A stretch of DNA of 64,000 nt from positions 310,001 to 374,000 of the forward strand of contig CALSTS010000001.1 of assembly GCA_943789335.1 (NCBI GenBank), read 5' to 3'. The position numbers and the translations under genes were made by a program. Below the pieces are notes generated by a model. That model had not been told where the DNA came from. It made no database searches and saw nothing but the letters and a program-made list of their open reading frames with translations. Of this stretch, positions 55,900-64,000 are shown one piece after another; the stretch's first letter is position 1, and the number at the start of each line of letters is the position of its first letter. This DNA comes from an uncultured Pseudomonadales bacterium. Its GTDB lineage: Bacteria > Pseudomonadota > Gammaproteobacteria > Pseudomonadales > Pseudohongiellaceae.

Positions 55900-56454
55900 C
55901 TAAAATATTAAATTATTAGGGGTCAAGGTGAGCATAGGGTATTCAGGGTGAATTAAAAAACGCAATAAGGTTATCGAACCGGCTGCATTCACCCTAATCT
56001 CATTACTATAAGGGCCTTCAGCACTATCGCAGTTTTGCAACCAGACTGTTGTTTGGCCTTGGAGCGTTGACGCAAATTCTTCACAGGCATGGGTCGCGAA
56101 AACTTCATCTTCGCTTGAATACTCCAAGCCAGTATCGGTTTTTTCAATGGCTACGTTTAGTTCAGAAGGTAATACGCCATCGGCTCTTACGACCTGCCAA
56201 CCATCAAACGACACAATGACGCTACCTTCTGTATTCATGAAATTAGTGACGCTCATATCGGTTGGAAAAATTGGCATTAAACGATAGTCATTGCCAGACC
56301 AAAGCATGGTCCAAGCTAACTCCTCATAAGGCACAGTATCATCTGGTCCATTGAAAGCAGACATAAGCAAGTCGAGTTGAGTCGAGCGAAAACTACATGC
56401 TTGTATACCAGCTAACACTATGACCCATAGTAATAGAAGCTTAACTATTTTCAT
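55900..56454 (-). CDS. YjbF/GfcB-family outer-membrane lipoprotein
   Basis: A 184-residue lipoprotein with signal LLLLWVIVLAGIQAC and lipobox IQAC. The body (LDLLMSAFNGPDDTVPYEELAWTML) resembles YjbF/GfcB, part of the group 4 capsule/Yjb exopolysaccharide secretion set. It overlaps the end of the yjbH-like gene by four bases, so it is the last gene of that operon. Family call rests on the combination of lipobox, size and neighbour. Confidence 0.75.
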   Translation of the reverse strand: MKIVKLLLLWVIVLAGIQACSFRSTQLDLLMSAFNGPDDTVPYEELAWTMLWSGNDYRLMPIFPTDMSVTNFMNTEGSVIVSFDGWQVVRADGVLPSELNVAIEKTDTGLEYSSEDEVFATHACEEFASTLQGQTTVWLQNCDSAEGPYSNEIRVNAAGSITLLRFLIHPEYPMLTLTPNNLIF

Positions 56455-58529
56455 GCCCCAGGCACCATTCTTAATTTATAGTTATTCAAAGCGTCATAAC
56501 GCGTTGGGCGTAAATCGTACCATAAGCTTGTGCCAAAGCCATTAAGGGCTTGTCCACCATCACGTTGAATTGAGCGAATAGTATTCGTATAAGTGGCACG
56601 AGTATTCCCCGGTAAAATTTGATCCAGCGGTACTCTAAAAAAGATGCCCTTATCAAAACTGCCTTCTCCAAAATCTTCAGCCGATACATCTGTAAATGTC
56701 GCAAATGCGCCTATCATCCAACCATTATCAAAGGTCCTGCGCACCTCAATAGTCGCGCCGACGTCTTTTGCTAAATATTGGCCAGCATGCACAGCCACAT
56801 CATAGTTATACCAGGGCGTTGCCCAATAGGCGCTGACGTGGCCGGTGACAACAGAATAGTCCAGCAAATCAAAATCTTTATCATAATCACGCTGCTTCAC
56901 CCAGTTAAGGTTAAGGCCAAATGCCAAGCGGGAGCTAAAGGGGCTGTATAAAAATTCACCACCAAGACCTGCATACATTTCTTCCAGATAACCACTGTAA
57001 GCCCGGTAATAAAGGTCTCTGCCCAGGTTGCCTTTTTTCTGTATGTACAAACTGTCCAGACCGGTATCACCTTGCTTTAGGTACTTTGCTATATCTGATC
57101 GCACATGAGGCAATACGGAGTTAGCACCACGAGAGATCGCGTCAAAATCATTATCGATGTCCCAGTTATAGCTAGCAAAAAGCGAAAAATAGTTTCCTAG
57201 ATCCATCGCCGCTGTGGTTTTAAGCATGACCTGATAACGCGCCGGATTATCAGGATCAAACAAAGACAAACGGGTCGATAAATCTGCACCAAAAGCGACA
57301 TTAGGGATACGGTAGCGGGTTACTGATGAGGGGTTGACTAAAGGAGAACCTGGAGTAATAGTAATTAAATCTTCAGCATCAAGCCATGTCCTTGGCCTAT
57401 CGCCAAATTGGCGCTGATAAACTATCGCATTACTGCGTATGCCGCCTTCATTTAAAATTATTTCTATGCTTTCTATTTGGGGAGGAAGGTGAATTTCAGC
57501 CAAGAGCAAGAAACGATTGATGCCATCTGCCATTAAATTGTACTGCTGGTTAGACAGCTCAAAACTCACCGATTTTTGGTCAGAAGAGATAGATGCTGCT
57601 CTAAGCAGCATGCCAGCACCTTCAACATCAAGCAGTAAATTTCTGTACCAGTTATTAAGCTCGGCACCCACTACTTCTTGAGCAAGATTGGAACTGACTG
57701 GTACCACAAGATTTTGTGAGAGCCGTGGTGCTTCATTTTTGGTATTGAGCGAAGCAGAAATATAAAACCCGGTTTGATTGCCTTGCTGTCTATTTATGCC
57801 CAAAGCAAAACCAGGTGTCGGTTCCCACTCGACGCCATAGCTAACAGGTGACGCATCAGGAATAGTGCCCAATCGACGCTCTCTTTGAAAAGAATCCGAG
57901 TTATATTCGACTAAGAGCTTGGTGTTCCAGTTTTCCAGCTCATAGCTCAATCCACCAAAAACACCTACCTCTGGACCACTGAAGAAATTTCCAAATGAAA
58001 CTTTCCCTCCTCTTCCAGTTTCTGCGCTTCGTGTTTCAAAGCTATTCGCAATAGACGTTAAGGGGTTGCTAAAAGTATCGCGCTCAGCCAACCTTCCCCA
58101 ACCAGTACCCAAAGTAAGGTCAAAAGCGCCAATAGATTTAGTGGCCACCAGGTATTCACTTCCCCAAGCTCCGGTACCGAGAACATCTCTAATGCCGATA
58201 GCTACTTGCGGAAATATTCTTCTTTCACGAATTAAGCGCAGTTTGACCTCATAGCTTCTATCGAAAAGGCCATCACCAGAGCCAGCAACTTTATCTGGAT
58301 TGAATATGGTGTAACGGAAAGTCGATTCAAGCCAGGGGGTGACTTGATAATTCAAAGAATAAATATCGGCCACAGTTTGCCGGCTCATGGCAATCTTGAA
58401 CTCACCATCGTCCATCATTCTGGCACTGGGAATATCAATTAGACCTGTTGTGCCAAAATCTGCTGCTGGTGCAACAGAGGCCACAGATAAACAAGCAAAC
58501 ACTGTAAAGAATTTTAAGACCTGATTCAT
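56451..58529 (-). CDS. YjbH-family outer-membrane exopolysaccharide protein
   Basis: A 692-residue protein with a signal peptide ending near PAAD (residue 24). It opens with FGTTGLIDIPSARMMDDGEF, the YjbH signature, followed by beta-barrel-like alternation (QVTPWLESTFRYTIFNP; YSPFSSRLAFGLNLNWVKQRDY) to the end, fitting an outer-membrane porin-like domain. YjbH/GfcD proteins serve extracellular polysaccharide export or assembly. No yjbG/gfcC gene is present between it and the lipoprotein gene. Confidence 0.85.
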   Translation of the reverse strand: MNQVLKFFTVFACLSVASVAPAADFGTTGLIDIPSARMMDDGEFKIAMSRQTVADIYSLNYQVTPWLESTFRYTIFNPDKVAGSGDGLFDRSYEVKLRLIRERRIFPQVAIGIRDVLGTGAWGSEYLVATKSIGAFDLTLGTGWGRLAERDTFSNPLTSIANSFETRSAETGRGGKVSFGNFFSGPEVGVFGGLSYELENWNTKLLVEYNSDSFQRERRLGTIPDASPVSYGVEWEPTPGFALGINRQQGNQTGFYISASLNTKNEAPRLSQNLVVPVSSNLAQEVVGAELNNWYRNLLLDVEGAGMLLRAASISSDQKSVSFELSNQQYNLMADGINRFLLLAEIHLPPQIESIEIILNEGGIRSNAIVYQRQFGDRPRTWLDAEDLITITPGSPLVNPSSVTRYRIPNVAFGADLSTRLSLFDPDNPARYQVMLKTTAAMDLGNYFSLFASYNWDIDNDFDAISRGANSVLPHVRSDIAKYLKQGDTGLDSLYIQKKGNLGRDLYYRAYSGYLEEMYAGLGGEFLYSPFSSRLAFGLNLNWVKQRDYDKDFDLLDYSVVTGHVSAYWATPWYNYDVAVHAGQYLAKDVGATIEVRRTFDNGWMIGAFATFTDVSAEDFGEGSFDKGIFFRVPLDQILPGNTRATYTNTIRSIQRDGGQALNGFGTSLWYDLRPTRYDALNNYKLRMVPGA

Positions 58530-59223: not shown

Positions 59224-60393
59224 ATGATTAATGTTGAAAATTCTTCAGAAACCCTCCTAGCCCTAGTCTCTGAGACCAATTTTATCCGCAATCTAGGGTT
59301 TAGCTTACTAATTATTTTTACCGTGCTTTTTTCTTTGATATGGCCGAAGTGGCAGGCCTTGCAGTGGCTCATTCAAGCAGGATTATTGTGGCTCTTGGTG
59401 ATAAAGGTAATAAGTCAACAACTTGAGCTAAACCGCCCTTCACAAAAACAGCCTATCTATGAAAATTTAGGCTGGGCAAATCGCCTCACTATACTTAGGG
59501 GCTTTTTAATTGCATTTACTGGAGGCTTTATTCTTCAACTCGATATAAGTGATAAAGCCCTTTTAATTCCAGCATTTAGCTACTTAATAGCCGCTATAAT
59601 AGATCGTCTTGATGGTTATTTAGCGCGCATTACCAAACATGAGAGCCTATTGGGCATCCAGCTTGATACTGAATTCGATGCGCTTGGATTACTGATAGCC
59701 CCCTTGCTAGCAGTTTGGATTGGCCAGATTCATTGGTCTTATTTGTTAGTAAGTGCGGCCTATTACTTATTTCAAAGTGGGCTTTATTGGAGAAACAGGC
59801 AACAAAAGCCCGTTTATCAGCTGCCGCTTAACATGTCACGCAGGGCCGTCGCAGGATTTCAGATGGGTTTCTTGGCCGTAGTGCTATGGCCAATTCTTGC
59901 GCCACCAGCGACTACCATTGCAGGATTTGCTTTCATGCTGCCTTTACTGGGAGGCTTTGTTATTGATTGGCTGATCGTCAGCGGACGCATAAATTTGGAA
60001 AAACCAGCAATCAGCAACTTTTTTAAACTTGCTGATAAAGTCACTCTTCAAATCTTGTTACCTATTTTCAGAGTAATAATCTTATGTTTAGTATGCTTGC
60101 TTATTATTAAAACTAACCCTCTTGGTTCAGTATTCAATGACATAACTTTTTCGAAGGCCATCTTGTTACTAAGCTTGCTGCTTTCTTCGTTAATGATATT
60201 GCTTGGTGTTCTTGGTCGCTTCTTCGCTATTATTCTTTCATGTCTACTGTGCTGGTTTTTCCTTTCATATGAGATGCACTATTTAGAGATTATTTTACTC
60301 GTCCTGGTTATTTGGGTTATGCAATTTGGCACAGGAAAATTCAGCCTTTGGCTGTGGGATGACCGTTGGGTACACCGATACGATGGTAGCTGA
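59224..60393 (+). CDS. CDP-alcohol phosphatidyltransferase-family membrane enzyme
   Basis: A 389-residue membrane protein. Residues about 126-149 carry the full family motif D-x2-DG-x2-AR-x8-G-x3-D-x3-D (read as DRLDGYLAR then GIQLDTEFD), so the active site is intact. Two helices precede the domain and three or four follow, longer than PgsA or PssA (about 180-250 residues). Such enzymes move a phosphatidyl or phospho-alcohol group from a CDP-lipid. The alcohol substrate is unknown. It lies 24 bp before the flippase-like gene. Confidence 0.85.
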   Translation: MINVENSSETLLALVSETNFIRNLGFSLLIIFTVLFSLIWPKWQALQWLIQAGLLWLLVIKVISQQLELNRPSQKQPIYENLGWANRLTILRGFLIAFTGGFILQLDISDKALLIPAFSYLIAAIIDRLDGYLARITKHESLLGIQLDTEFDALGLLIAPLLAVWIGQIHWSYLLVSAAYYLFQSGLYWRNRQQKPVYQLPLNMSRRAVAGFQMGFLAVVLWPILAPPATTIAGFAFMLPLLGGFVIDWLIVSGRINLEKPAISNFFKLADKVTLQILLPIFRVIILCLVCLLIIKTNPLGSVFNDITFSKAILLLSLLLSSLMILLGVLGRFFAIILSCLLCWFFLSYEMHYLEIILLVLVIWVMQFGTGKFSLWLWDDRWVHRYDGS

Positions 60394-60416
60394 AATATTG
60401 GCTGAGACAGTAACTG

Positions 60417-61404
60417 ATGAGCAGTTATAAAATTATCAGGTTAGCGGCTTGGATAAGCGCCTTAGCTTTAGCCGGCTGGCTTATTCGTGATTTGCCATTT
60501 AACGACATATTAGATTCTGTCAAAAGCTTATCAATGCGACAGTGGTTTTACTGGTCAATTTTAAATTTATTTATCATATTTATTTTTGTTTGGCGCTGGA
60601 TGGCGCTGACTAAAGGGCTGGATCTAAATCTAAATTTTCTTAACTTATTATTTTTGCGTCAAGCTGGCCAGAGCGTTAGTTTTATAACGCCTGGCCCTCA
60701 GTTTGGTGGAGAACCACTACAGATTTTTTTGCTATATAAAAGGTTTAATATTTCTCCCGGGGACTCTTTTTTAGCCCTTGCTGTTGATAGATTCTTCGAA
60801 CTTTGGGTAAATTTTGCAGTGCTTTTACTAGGCATACTTTACTTAGCATTTTCTGGTTCCGGTCTGGAAAACTGGATTTCCGTAGCACTTATTATTGCTT
60901 TAGCAATATTGCTGTTATGTTTTTTGGCCTGGGGGGTCATACAACGTCATACGCTGCAATTGCGAAAATAGTAAATAATATTGGTCTGAGATGGTTAGGC
61001 AGCAAACGCTTAGCTAGTATGAACTTTCACTGGAATCAAATCACCGAGCTCTCTGCAACACTTATTGAAAAATAAACTCGCACTATTGCTGCTGCTTTAC
61101 TACTGTCTATAAGCGGCTGGCTGCTAACCTTTTTTGAACTCTATCTGGTATTAAGCTTTTTCAACATTTATTTGAGCACAGACTGATTTCATATTATTAC
61201 TTGTGGCAATGCGCTTGGCATTTTTATTACCCTTGCCTGGAGGCATTGGCACATTAGAAGCGGCGGTGCTTTGGGTGTTCAGCGCAATAGTGCTGACCTG
61301 AAGCCGCCGCCGCAGCAGTACTAGCCCTGATCCGATTTCGCGATGTCATAGTGCTCGGCCTAGGCTTTATGTGTTTACGCCTACTTCAAGCCAAAACAGT
61401 CTGA
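60417..61404 (+). pseudogene. Lysylphosphatidylglycerol synthase TM/UPF0104 flippase-like protein, several frameshifts
   Basis: The first 184 residues are an intact part of a polytopic UPF0104 protein (RQAGQSVSFITPGPQFGGEP, then LALAVDRFFELW). Near 60967 a base seems missing in an A run; IVNNIGLRWLGSKRLA continues in the next frame to a TAA at 61073. Further pieces SGWLLTFFELYLVLSFF, LAFLLPLPGGIGTLEAA and AVLALIRFRDVIVLGLGFM follow in shifting frames up to 61404. The combined length, about 328 residues, fits the family. Called broken as sequenced; base errors are likely. Confidence 0.75.
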
Positions 61405-61405
61405 A

Positions 61406-62290
61406 TTAGATATTGTTATCTCGAGTTCTTGCTGCTGCTAGCTGCTCATAGCGTTTATTGAGCCAGTCTTCCAGGCCTGGCATGCCTGCTAAGGCTTTTT
61501 TAATCGTGTCCAAAATATTCTTAATGAATAGACCATCACCTGCAGGTTGGTTTTTATCGCTAAGATTCCAATCCGACTCTCCGGCAATGACTTTTTGACA
61601 GCCGTAGTCTTGTCCAACCATTGTGGGAAGAGCAGTCTGCCGGTAAGGCTTGGTTGCCAAGCCAGTTCTGGGAAACGAGCATCCATGTCTTTGTGATAGT
61701 TTTTGGCAATCGCCTGCATCGCTTGAGTGATCTACTGGGCAAAAAGCTTGTCTCGCCTGAAAAATTCAGACTGAAATAAAAGCCACCAGCTTGTTTAAGT
61801 TTGCTCAATAGCACGGGCATTACAGTTGGCACTGGGAGCAAATCTATTACTGCGTGACTCAACAACAAATCGAAACTTTCCTTAGCAAAGAGTTGATCAA
61901 TTTGATCGGCGTCTGCTGCCAGCCATTCAATTGTTAAATCCAGATCCTTACCGCTAAGCGACCATATGCCTTCAGTGCATGTATTTCAAAGATCAACCCC
62001 ATGATGCATTTGCCCATGCACTTAATCGATCTCTGCGCCGCTTCTCTGAATGATGACTCAGGTTCAAGCGCAATATAATGGCATTGTCTTAATAAGGACA
62101 GGCTTCTAGCAGCCTTTCTATCATAGTGCCTATGCCGGCTCCAATTTCGAGAACACCTCAGCTCGGCTCCAAGTTCATTTCTAGCCCTTAGCCAATTGCG
62201 CAAAATCATTCCAAACAAGCTTTATTCAGGCTTCTATCATCAATATTCTTTTTTAACATCCAAGGTATTTCACATAATCGAAGGTTTCAT
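61406..62290 (-). pseudogene. Class I SAM-dependent methyltransferase, multiple frameshifts
   Basis: Pieces in all three frames line up as one gene: a start ATG at 62290 overlapping the glycosyltransferase stop, motif I VLEIGAGIGTMIERL near 62150, LSHAVIDLLPVPTVMPVLLSKLKQAGGFYFSLNF, ARFPELAWQPSLTG, then KVIAGESDWNLSDKNQPAGDG to the stop at 61406. The total of about 294 residues suits a small-molecule or lipid methyltransferase. At least four indels or stops break it, so no product is read as given. Substrate unknown. Confidence 0.7.
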
Positions 62291-63403
62291 TAACCAAAAG
62301 CGGCTAAATCCTCTTGTTCTTTGCTTAGCTCTTGCAAGAATGTTCGTACCTTGGACATGCTTTCATCCCATCTCGGGTGCTGTAAGTATTTCTCTCTGAG
62401 CGGATTCCGAAAGTTGCGCTCAACAGCTGCCGGTCATCGTTCTCAAGTCCATATAATTAGTTCAGCTAAGGTATCACTATCCTCTGGGTCGATTAAGTAG
62501 CCATTCTCGCCTTCATTAATAATTTCTTTTGCTCCTCCTAATTTGCAGCCAATTACTGGCATACAAAACTGCATCGCTTCTAGAAAAACAATACCATAGG
62601 CTTCATTCACAGACGGCAAAACAAAGACATCATGCTCAAGATATTTTTGTTGAAGATTCTCATCTGTTAACGAGCCGTAAAATACTATCTGATTGCCTAG
62701 CTCATTAATTTTAATATATGTTTTTATATTTTTTATATAGTTGAGATCTAAATCCTCGCGGCCTACTACTGACAAGGAAATATTCATATTTTTCAGTTTA
62801 TACATCGCCTTAATAAGAACATGCAGCCCTTTTTGTTGTGTGATATTTCCGACAAAAAGTATTTTTAACTGTTTTTTTAAATAATCTTTACTTGCCGTTT
62901 CAGTTTTCTTGAAATTATTTCCACACGGTACTGCAATAAGATTTGGAGGTAATTTATTGCTCAATAGCTTATTGGCTTGCTTTAGAGTCTCTTCACTATT
63001 TAGAATTAACCCATCAATAGATTTGAGGGTAACGTTTTTCAACAACCTGGCACATTATTTTTTTACAGTAGTTATTAGGTATAGCGCTACTTAACAAGTG
63101 CACAAGAGAAACTATTGGGCACTTTAGTAATTGTTTTAATTACGATTAATTTTCCAAAATGACGGATAAACTAATTCATCCTGAATAAGAATATCTAAAT
63201 TTTTGACCTGCATAAGCTCCAAACTTTTCAAGTTCTCGAGGAATTGAATTTGAGCATAACGCTTTAATATATGAAGTTTTTTTTAGACTAATAATGCTAA
63301 CTTCATCGCCTTGCTGCCGGAATATTTCAACTAGTTTTCGATCATAGAGATAACCACCACTGATAGTGTTGATATCACCATAAACTACCAAACCTATTCG
63401 CAT
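62290..63403 (-). pseudogene. GT4-family glycosyltransferase, several frameshifts
   Basis: Start at 63403 gives MRIGLVVYGDINTISGGYLYDR, a GT4 N-terminus. Five single-base indels (near 63219, 63130, 63045, 62444 and 62410) separate LIQDELVYPSFWKINR, LLKCPIVSLVHLL, and the C-terminal domain with ILFVGNITQQKGLHVLIKA, FVLPSVNEAYGIVFLEAM and LGGAKEI. The last part HPRWDESMSKVRTFLQEL ends at a TAA overlapping the next ATG. Net length corrects to about 370 residues. The E-x7-E donor site (EAYGIVFLE) is intact. Confidence 0.75.
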
Positions 63404-63413
63404 TATAAAATTC

Positions 63414-63800
63414 TTAATTACTTAGGTATTCTTTTTTATAGGCGGCCCAGCAACTTTCATTTTCCCATAATTTTATTTCAAGTTTTCCACTGCCTGGAGG
63501 ACTAATTTGACGAATTATATGCTGCCAAATGATGCGGCTAAAATGTTCTAAACTTGGATTTATATCTTTAAATTCAGGTAAATCATTTAACATATTATCT
63601 TTAAAGTAAGTGACGGTTTGCTCCAGACCTGCTTCTATATCAACAATATCAACCAAATAGCCATGTTGATCCAATTCATTATGCTCAATGATAAGCTCAA
63701 TAACATAGTGATGGGAGTGAGGGTCATTTTCTTCACCCCAATCACCACCAATTAAATAGTGTTGCGCAATAAAATCTTTTTGTACGGCTATGCTGTACAT
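63414..63800 (-). CDS. 6-pyruvoyl-tetrahydropterin synthase/QueD-like protein lacking the usual Cys
   Basis: A 128-residue T-fold protein. DFIAQHYLIGGDWGEENDPHSHHYVIEL gives the zinc histidines (H in FIAQH, and H-x-H in HSHHY; motif spans residues 9-35), and the C-terminal KLEIKLWENESCWAAY has the substrate-binding Glu. The position before HSHHY where QueD and PTPS keep the catalytic Cys is Glu/Asn/Asp here. It lies between a dehydrogenase and a glycosyltransferase, not with queC/queE, so a queuosine role is doubtful. Confidence 0.85.
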   Translation of the reverse strand: MYSIAVQKDFIAQHYLIGGDWGEENDPHSHHYVIELIIEHNELDQHGYLVDIVDIEAGLEQTVTYFKDNMLNDLPEFKDINPSLEHFSRIIWQHIIRQISPPGSGKLEIKLWENESCWAAYKKEYLSN

Positions 63801-63803
63801 ATT

Positions 63804-64000
63804 TCAATCCTCATAAGTAAAAATTACTTGCAATGCTTTGTCTGCCTCTTCATCGAGCAAGGTATAGGCTTTATCTGCTTGAGAAAAAGGGAATCGGTGA
63901 CTGATATATTTTTCTACATTTAGTTCAAGAATTAAATCCATGGCTTTTTTCAAGCGTTTTTCTTTTGTCCATTCTAAAACGTGTTCTGGACTAATGGTAC
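63804..64000 (-). CDS. Zinc-type alcohol dehydrogenase, C-terminal end only
   Basis: About 65 residues to a TGA at 63804, entering from the window edge. The reading EHVLEWTKEKRLKKAMDLI, YISHRFPFSQADKAYTLLDE and ALQVIFTYED matches the C-terminus of MDR (zinc-binding) dehydrogenases, where RFPF-x-A-x-x-AY is typical. Cofactor and metal sites are outside. Its stop is three bases before the pterin-synthase-like start, so the two are almost surely one transcript. Confidence 0.75.
   Translation of the reverse strand, partial: TISPEHVLEWTKEKRLKKAMDLILELNVEKYISHRFPFSQADKAYTLLDEEADKALQVIFTYED

Follow-up and report, generated by a model that had tools for sequence, protein, structure and literature searches.

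A conserved gene cassette that may build a glycosylated, methylated, GTP-derived compound, possibly lipid-linked in some lineages

At the right edge of a 64,000-nucleotide stretch of DNA from an uncultured bacterium of the Pseudohongiellaceae (the window; G000:C1:310001-374000, where G000 is the genome that holds it and G001-G004 are relatives from the same genus), a plus-strand gene pair converges on a minus-strand unit. They belong to a gene cassette that is the subject of this report. The pair encodes a CDP-alcohol phosphatidyltransferase (59224-60393, plus strand; 389 amino acids), which has a complete catalytic motif and extra membrane helices flanking the catalytic domain on both sides, and a flippase-like protein of the LPG_synthase_TM/UPF0104 type (60417-61404, plus strand), whose gene is frame-broken as read and open to 60971. 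The minus strand carries a gene for an S-adenosylmethionine (SAM)-dependent methyltransferase (61381-62298), frame-broken as read, with four fragments that match the family model; a GT4 glycosyltransferase gene (62288-63403, its left end estimated from the overlap in G003), of which 62443-63045 is open and holds the GT4 domain (in 62446-63045) and the remainder is frame-broken; a PTPS/QueD-like T-fold protein (63414-63800; 128 amino acids; motif GGDWGEENDPHSHHY); and a BchC-like MDR dehydrogenase without zinc ligands (63804-64000 in the window, continuing to the equivalent of 64808). The unit extends past the window edge, where the same operon contains, after the remainder of the dehydrogenase, a RibD_C reductase (equivalent of 64805-65527; 240 amino acids) and a GTP cyclohydrolase II, RibA (equivalent of 65505-66170); an inositol-monophosphatase-family gene lies next upstream. 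The CDP-alcohol transferase, PTPS homologue, dehydrogenase, RibD_C and RibA genes are open in G000. The set is intact in G003, where RibA, RibD_C, the dehydrogenase, the PTPS homologue, GT4 and the methyltransferase follow one another on one strand, in the order of the reactions proposed below, and the flippase and CDP-alcohol transferase genes are convergent with them. There, the flippase (326 amino acids), the methyltransferase (297 amino acids, matched by Pfam methyltransferase models) and GT4 (378 amino acids) are open. The original prediction for this locus, two convergent units with a CDP-alcohol transferase of intact motif on one strand and a PTPS-like gene on the other, is borne out by reading frames and family matches. 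It had also described overlaps of a few bases between the minus-strand genes, which is right for some junctions in G003 (overlaps of 4-24 bases) and wrong for others (gaps of 3-14 bases).

Is this arrangement particular to the genus? When 57 genomes were searched, the dehydrogenase was found with at least 273 bits in 24 of the 36 that belong to the window's family. Neighborhoods were read in 20 of these 24 (G010, G011, G015 and G030 were left out). The PTPS homologue, GT4, the methyltransferase and RibD_C are each present in all 20 (in the window's own genome via fragments), with the CDP-alcohol transferase in 19, RibA and the flippase in 18 each, and a sulfatase-fold protein in 11. The cluster of G002 has no flippase that could be found; one lies elsewhere in that genome. 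Among 398 Pseudomonadota genomes, the dehydrogenase scores at least 235 bits in 27 and the PTPS homologue at least 120 bits in 27, and the carriers are the identical 27 genomes, the window's own included. The two genes lie on the same strand, 7-128 bp apart, in every one of them. The next dehydrogenase-like scores are 207 bits, for a second copy in one of the 27 (G318), and then 116 bits; the next PTPS score below the carriers is 86 bits. Three of the 27 dehydrogenase matches (G068, G350 and G394) contain one internal TGA. Because of this conservation, with shared carriers and constant adjacency, a chance grouping of the genes is excluded, and the co-occurrence in other genomes that the original prediction had proposed as its check is strongly confirmed.

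The cassette is also found in distant lineages. A scan of named genomes with the dehydrogenase alone gave 592 confirmed loci, of which the best 80 were read; this is not a census. Bacterial loci among the best 80 come from gammaproteobacteria (relatives of Pseudohongiella and OM182, Methylococcaceae and Saccharospirillum), many Chloroflexota, Desulfobacterota, one Neomarinimicrobiota bin and one Cohnella, and archaeal loci come from haloarchaea and methanogen-related archaea. Three loci (L064, L080 and L105) bear the doubtful bin title Klebsiella pneumoniae. The best 80 loci, many of them on short contigs, include the PTPS homologue in 77, GT4 in 68, RibD_C in 56, the methyltransferase in 51, RibA in 42, the flippase in 37 and the CDP-alcohol transferase in 34. 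The corresponding counts for the 45 loci of at least 18 kb among these 80 (the long loci) are 45, 44, 30, 35, 25, 25 and 21. Group counts leave out L142 (the same record as L134), L157 (the same place as L052) and L138, a Streptomyces plasmid that carries a PTPS homologue without the rest of the cassette. The membership of individual loci varies. For example, L143 lacks RibA, GT4 and the CDP-alcohol transferase, L057 and L053 each lack RibA and the CDP-alcohol transferase, and no PTPS homologue was found in L140, which has GTP cyclohydrolase III (GCH III) and the dehydrogenase, or within the stretches covered in L087, L112 and L128. On annotated haloarchaeal megaplasmids the core is present and its partners vary by locus. 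The fullest set occurs on a Rhizobium plasmid and the Agrobacterium plasmid pAt, with a sulfatase, the flippase, the CDP-alcohol transferase, RibA, the dehydrogenase, the PTPS homologue, GT4, the methyltransferase, RibD and a cytochrome b. In Methylomonas sp. LW13 (L065), a single stretch holds RibA, RibD_C, the dehydrogenase, the PTPS homologue, GT4, the flippase, the CDP-alcohol transferase and a sulfatase-fold gene, with no recognizable methyltransferase; L055 is from Haloarcula marismortui. A scan of viral contigs with the dehydrogenase gave three pattern matches and no confirmed relative, and 55 Enterobacter plasmid matches were left out of the reading.

Other genes were seen beside the cassette. 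First, a small protein of ~118 amino acids adjoins it in 17 of 106 loci (L077, L082, L084, L088, L091, L092, L095, L099, L103, L108, L111, L114, L118, L126, L135 and the haloarchaeal L054 and L055); the L103 copy has no Pfam match. Second, an MdoH-type glucosyltransferase gene adjoins the dehydrogenase in L057 (6067-7869) and in Neorhizobium CP030830.1. Third, a PF04029 phosphatase-family gene lies between the dehydrogenase and the PTPS homologue in six Chloroflexota loci (Pfam-checked in one). Fourth, a YjbH-family exopolysaccharide gene and a 184-amino-acid gene, overlapping by 4 bases, lie upstream in the window (55900-58529), and both are kept beside the cassette in G001-G004.

The cluster RibA of the window's genome has the zinc Cys cluster and the YxRQEGRGIGL motif, and it passes as a GTP cyclohydrolase II against TIGR00505 (258.5 bits; cut-off 205.85). 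It is the only strong PF00925 match in G000-G004. The other match is a RibBA-type protein (G000:C1:287205-287681, outside the window, L144; G003:C29:126310-126786, L145), and in both G000 and G003 the RibA half of this protein is without the zinc Cys and RQEGR motifs. By its motifs, the cluster RibA seems to be the only recognizably intact GTP cyclohydrolase II in the genus, and for this reason it probably feeds riboflavin synthesis too. By score, a strong standalone RibA exists in four relatives that have no cassette; its motifs were checked in G005 and G007. The RibD_C protein consists of RibD_C with no deaminase domain by Pfam, and it exceeds the cut-off for the C-terminal domain of TIGR00227 (158.4 bits; cut-off 150.15). 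The model of the archaeal diamino-substrate reductase gives it 123.5 bits against 111.2 bits for that of bacterial RibD, below cut-off; the same two models give 150.3 and 102 bits for a RibA-RibD_C fusion, again below cut-off. Such fusions, with RibA and RibD_C in one open frame, occur in nine Chloroflexota loci, one of them with a weaker RibD_C match, and Pfam finds no deaminase domain in the two that were checked. Four of 12 haloarchaeal loci carry GCH III, and RibA is nearby in none of the 12. This entry resembles the way archaeal-type riboflavin synthesis begins (GCH III, ArfB and a diamino-substrate reductase), where, according to excerpts of PMC9478397, GTP is opened and reduction precedes deamination. 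In contrast to that pathway, no deaminase, lumazine synthase or riboflavin synthase is encoded in the cassette stretches that were read, and GT4, a methyltransferase and often lipid genes are present in addition. The formylpyrimidine hydrolases belong to the creatininase family (excerpts of PMC9478397). Creatininase-family genes occur in L055, L153 and L156; their scores do not reach the cut-off for any of the functional models shown, and a link to formylpyrimidine hydrolase is possible.

The PTPS-like protein matches PF01242 with 87.5 bits. In T-fold proteins that bind pterins or pyrimidines, a Glu anchors the ring. This Glu is kept in all 108 full-length PTPS rows compared (motif rows for this protein and for the dehydrogenase keep repeats, such as G006/L058 and G029/L061, which are the same records, so that rows are not species). 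At the position of the catalytic Cys of QueD, no row has Cys, 93 have Glu and 15 have Ala. All three His of the zinc triad are present in 79 of the 108 rows; the second His is Asn in 13 rows, from Chloroflexota, the third is Ala in the 15 rows of the FGPAQ type (one of them reading FGSAQ), and one row is odd. The window's protein reads GGDWGEENDPHSHHY at this position and not FGPAQ. Its nearest solved structures are uncharacterized SCO6650-type proteins of Streptomyces (PDB 3d7j), which are of the FGPAQ type; the neighbor of SCO6650, SCO6655, is an unusual GTP cyclohydrolase II.

These features bear on whether the genes might simply supply riboflavin, folate or queuosine, as ordinary vitamin or tRNA-base synthesis, a reading that we regard as very improbable. 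RibA and RibD_C are of riboflavin type, G000-G004 have no strong RibA besides that of the cluster, and PTPS homologues are usually annotated as QueD, a protein with which the cassette protein shares its fold family, the first His and the ring-anchoring Glu. Nevertheless, the cassette protein differs from QueD/PTPS-I in lacking the catalytic Cys throughout, falls well short of the QueD equivalog model (43.4 bits; cut-off 89.25), and has no que genes adjoining it. A separate QueD-type gene was found in all 10 cassette genomes searched (on contig C3 in G000), and a complete RibD and a RibBA-type protein are present elsewhere in the genomes searched. Moreover, the dehydrogenase, GT4, the CDP-alcohol transferase and the flippase would have no part in such supply. 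A role of the cluster in supplying queuosine, folate or riboflavin is disfavored given QueD and RibD elsewhere and the missing Cys, and the queuosine or folate operon that the original prediction had considered upstream of the window edge is not there; RibD_C and GTP cyclohydrolase II are.

The dehydrogenase is of the MDR type, and the zinc-type label that the original prediction gave it does not hold. Ser replaces the zinc Cys in 118 of 119 aligned rows, and Tyr replaces the His of GHE in 118 of 119. Its best NCBIfam match is BchC, the bacteriochlorophyllide dehydrogenase, with 87.7 bits, below the cut-off of 291.25; unlike BchC, it lacks zinc ligands and has no chlorophyll genes beside it. 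The structures closest to its AlphaFold model (mean pLDDT 87.2) are threonine, butanediol and polyol MDR dehydrogenases; quinone reductases rank further down.

The CDP-alcohol transferase matches PF01066 with 52.1 bits (cut-off 22) and has the complete motif D-x2-D-G-x2-A-R ... G-x3-D-x3-D. Its nearest solved relative by sequence is PgsA, the phosphatidylglycerolphosphate synthase (E 5e-9). A fold search with its AlphaFold model (mean pLDDT 89.6) also puts PgsA nearest, weakly, with a best E of 5.9e-3 and none at E ≤0.001. It differs from PgsA in its length of 389 amino acids with extra helices, and in scoring 23.5 bits against TIGR00560 (cut-off 109.1). Since PgsA is the nearest solved relative, a phosphorylated polyol is a plausible acceptor. 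The flippase-like protein matches LPG_synthase_TM with 54.3 bits over its first 184 amino acids. In the intact G003 protein, PF03706 is the sole match, i.e., the membrane domain of the MprF family; unlike lysylphosphatidylglycerol synthase (MprF), it is without the C-terminal aminoacyl-transfer domain.

What might these enzymes make? We propose, with moderate confidence and from gene content, that they form a conserved biosynthetic cassette for a GTP-derived compound with a sugar-bearing, methylated ring that would be lipid-linked in some lineages. In the first step, which is well supported by sequence, GTP cyclohydrolase II would open GTP to give the diaminopyrimidine ribosyl phosphate of the riboflavin branch; in some haloarchaea, GCH III would open GTP instead. 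In the second step, also supported, the deaminase-less RibD_C reductase would convert the ribosyl chain to a ribityl chain and leave the guanine-like 2-amino group in place. The zinc-less MDR dehydrogenase may then oxidize the ribityl chain, and the PTPS-like T-fold protein, with its ring-anchoring Glu, may cyclize or trim it. GT4 would glycosylate the product and the methyltransferase would methylate it, as family and gene order suggest. Finally, in lineages like the window's, the CDP-alcohol transferase would join the product to CDP-diacylglycerol, perhaps by way of a polyol phosphate (compare PgsA), and the UPF0104-type protein would move the lipid across the membrane. With a riboflavin-type entry, which is encoded beyond the window edge and was out of view of the original prediction, the ring could be a ribityl-aminopyrimidine or a pterin formed from it, rather than a product of dihydroneopterin triphosphate. 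The presence of the CDP-alcohol transferase and the flippase makes a glycosylated, methylated, lipid-linked product a reasonable inference. The original prediction of a lipid with such a head group is partly supported; its zinc label does not hold, and three of its six genes are broken in the assembly.

Several observations weigh against this proposal. First, the middle steps are proposed from family membership and motifs. Second, the entry genes are often missing: both RibA and GCH III are absent from 19 of the 45 long loci, RibD_C is absent from 15, and none of the 12 haloarchaeal loci has RibD_C nearby. The entry genes may therefore often lie elsewhere or not be needed. Third, 35 of 36 cassette genomes encode GTP cyclohydrolase I, which would make another route to the common pterins redundant. 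Fourth, the flippase, methyltransferase and GT4 genes are broken as read in this genome. Fifth, 18 of the 45 long loci have neither the CDP-alcohol transferase nor the flippase, and eight have only one, which may mean that the lipid step is optional, encoded elsewhere or a separate module. As a side observation on GTP cyclohydrolase I, a second match in G000 (C1:36108-36641; 204.6 bits) contains one in-frame TAG; the intact copy is on contig C10.

The uneven distribution of the lipid genes leads to the strongest competing explanation, which is that the product of the core is a soluble pterin or pyrimidine, glycosylated and methylated, that serves as a cofactor, light screen or signal, and that the lipid genes are a separate adjoining module. 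Besides the long loci without a full lipid pair, the placement of the two units on opposite strands in the window's genus fits this explanation, and the cyanobacterial pterin glycosides described in excerpts of PMC13259868 are soluble precedents. We consider it a real but clearly less probable possibility. In 19 of the 45 long loci the core has both lipid genes beside it, each is present in most of the 20 family loci (the CDP-alcohol transferase in 19 and the flippase in 18), and the pair is also found next to L139 and L141, distant cassettes of the rhizobial type.

A bolder version of the lipid proposal, which we consider rather improbable, is a new class of membrane lipid whose head group would be a redox-active pterin, produced by a route to pterins that bypasses GTP cyclohydrolase I. 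RibA would open GTP, RibD_C would make the ribityl chain, the dehydrogenase would oxidize the 2'-hydroxyl, and the resulting ketone would close on the 5-amino group to give dihydroneopterin phosphate. The T-fold protein, GT4 and the methyltransferase would tailor this product, which would then be attached to a phospholipid and flipped. Near-universal GTP cyclohydrolase I (35 of 36 genomes) speaks against this reading, as does the absence of cytochrome b561 and YceI from the surroundings of most loci. Cytochrome b561 occurs near 10 (L042, L046, L056, L068, L073, L139, L141, L150, L154 and L155) and YceI near 14 of 120 cassette-side loci, with a few places counted twice (for YceI, L052 and L157 are one place). 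In L139 and L141, RibD is followed by a cytochrome b gene in the same orientation. Cytochrome b561 and YceI could be electron partners, and could hint at redox use.

The shared riboflavin branch also raises the question of an F420 or deazaflavin pathway, whose precursors derive from it, and unpublished work mentioned in an excerpt of PMC5041015 is said to involve PTPS-IV in F420. A CofD-family match was found in five of 36 cassette genomes, including G000 and G001. The other 31 have none, and the family is not specific to F420, given that the Escherichia coli, Corynebacterium glutamicum and Lactococcus lactis controls match it. No FO-synthase gene was seen beside the cassette; whole genomes were not searched for one. 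Because CofD is present in so few genomes and its family matches E. coli, this pathway is the least probable of the explanations weighed here.

Are the three broken genes a sign that the cassette is being lost in this organism? The original prediction needs correcting here: as read, the three genes are not fully open, since the flippase frame ends after 184 amino acids, the first half of GT4 is frame-broken and the methyltransferase is recognizable in four fragments. Read in one frame with stops as X, the methyltransferase region has no Pfam match. Decay, with the flippase, methyltransferase and GT4 genes as true pseudogenes here, would be compatible with any function elsewhere. Alignment to G003 reports 6, 17 and 8 frameshifting indels in the flippase, methyltransferase and GT4 genes, respectively, a family search found ten internal stops in the flippase, and genome completeness is 91.4%, compared with 97% in G001-G004. 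The number of indels is no proof by itself, because the same alignment also places frameshifting indels in genes whose frames are open in G000 and G003 alike (SuhB-like 7, YjbH 5, RibA 3 and lpd 2). The damage is limited to ~2.4 kb (window 60.9-63.4 kb) between open genes. All 18 methyltransferase indels are insertions, 17 of them of 1-2 bases. Mismatches to G003 still favor the third codon position in all three genes (positions 1/2/3: methyltransferase 59/41/149, flippase 57/30/146, GT4 77/57/160), and the intact CDP-alcohol transferase has 79/34/163. Since the methyltransferase shows insertions only and mismatches still follow codons in all three genes, the breaks are probably insertion errors in a badly covered 2.4-kb stretch rather than decay, which we judge unlikely.

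The cassette comes in two subtypes. In a dehydrogenase tree of 118 rows (quick method, midpoint root), which supports two groups and says nothing of transfer direction, 13 rows split from 105 with full support. The 13-row group pairs with PTPS homologues of the FGPAQ type, and the 105-row group, which includes the window, pairs with the ExxxHxH type. Both subtypes share dehydrogenase, GT4 and methyltransferase neighbors. Named rows near the window are from Pseudohongiella and OM182. Within the 105-row group, 13 haloarchaeal rows form one well-supported group, and two methanogen-related rows stand apart from it. The alpha-type cassettes L139, L141 and L152-L155, which are of the FGPAQ type, have a longer RibA in which D or A replaces the R of RQEGR, and this substitution suggests that their RibA chemistry may be altered.

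Part of this neighborhood has been published. PF00925 and PF01872 were reported in 2017 near FGPAQ-type PTPS-IV, in AGeNNT cluster-node 62, so that a PTPS homologue beside a GTP cyclohydrolase and RibD_C, and the FGPAQ signature of the second subtype (15 rows), are common to both accounts (excerpts of PMC5445326). The window's protein, with ExxxHxH and no FGPAQ, is alike in setting and is not a member by motif. The excerpts of that account contain no mention of the dehydrogenase, GT4, the methyltransferase, the CDP-alcohol transferase or the flippase, and assign no product. The cyanobacterial pterin glycosides carry a sugar on a pterin, which a GT4 beside a PTPS homologue could make; in contrast to the cassette, no lipid genes and no RibA/RibD_C entry are mentioned for them in excerpts of PMC13259868. 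Word searches of the open-licence literature gave no description that we recognized of the full gene set or its product. We know of no pathway that joins these steps. The pathway is easily overlooked because the annotated records seen name its enzymes after queuosine, riboflavin or alcohol metabolism.

The core is kept together in Gammaproteobacteria, Alphaproteobacteria, Chloroflexota, Desulfobacterota and haloarchaea, and it is for this reason very likely that the cassette makes something useful. A 2026 review knows of no pterin efflux system and calls the passage of pterins across membranes unknown (excerpts of PMC13259868). If the product is indeed a lipid, its class would link ring chemistry derived from purines with the membrane, and the finding would be relevant to the transport of pterins across membranes.

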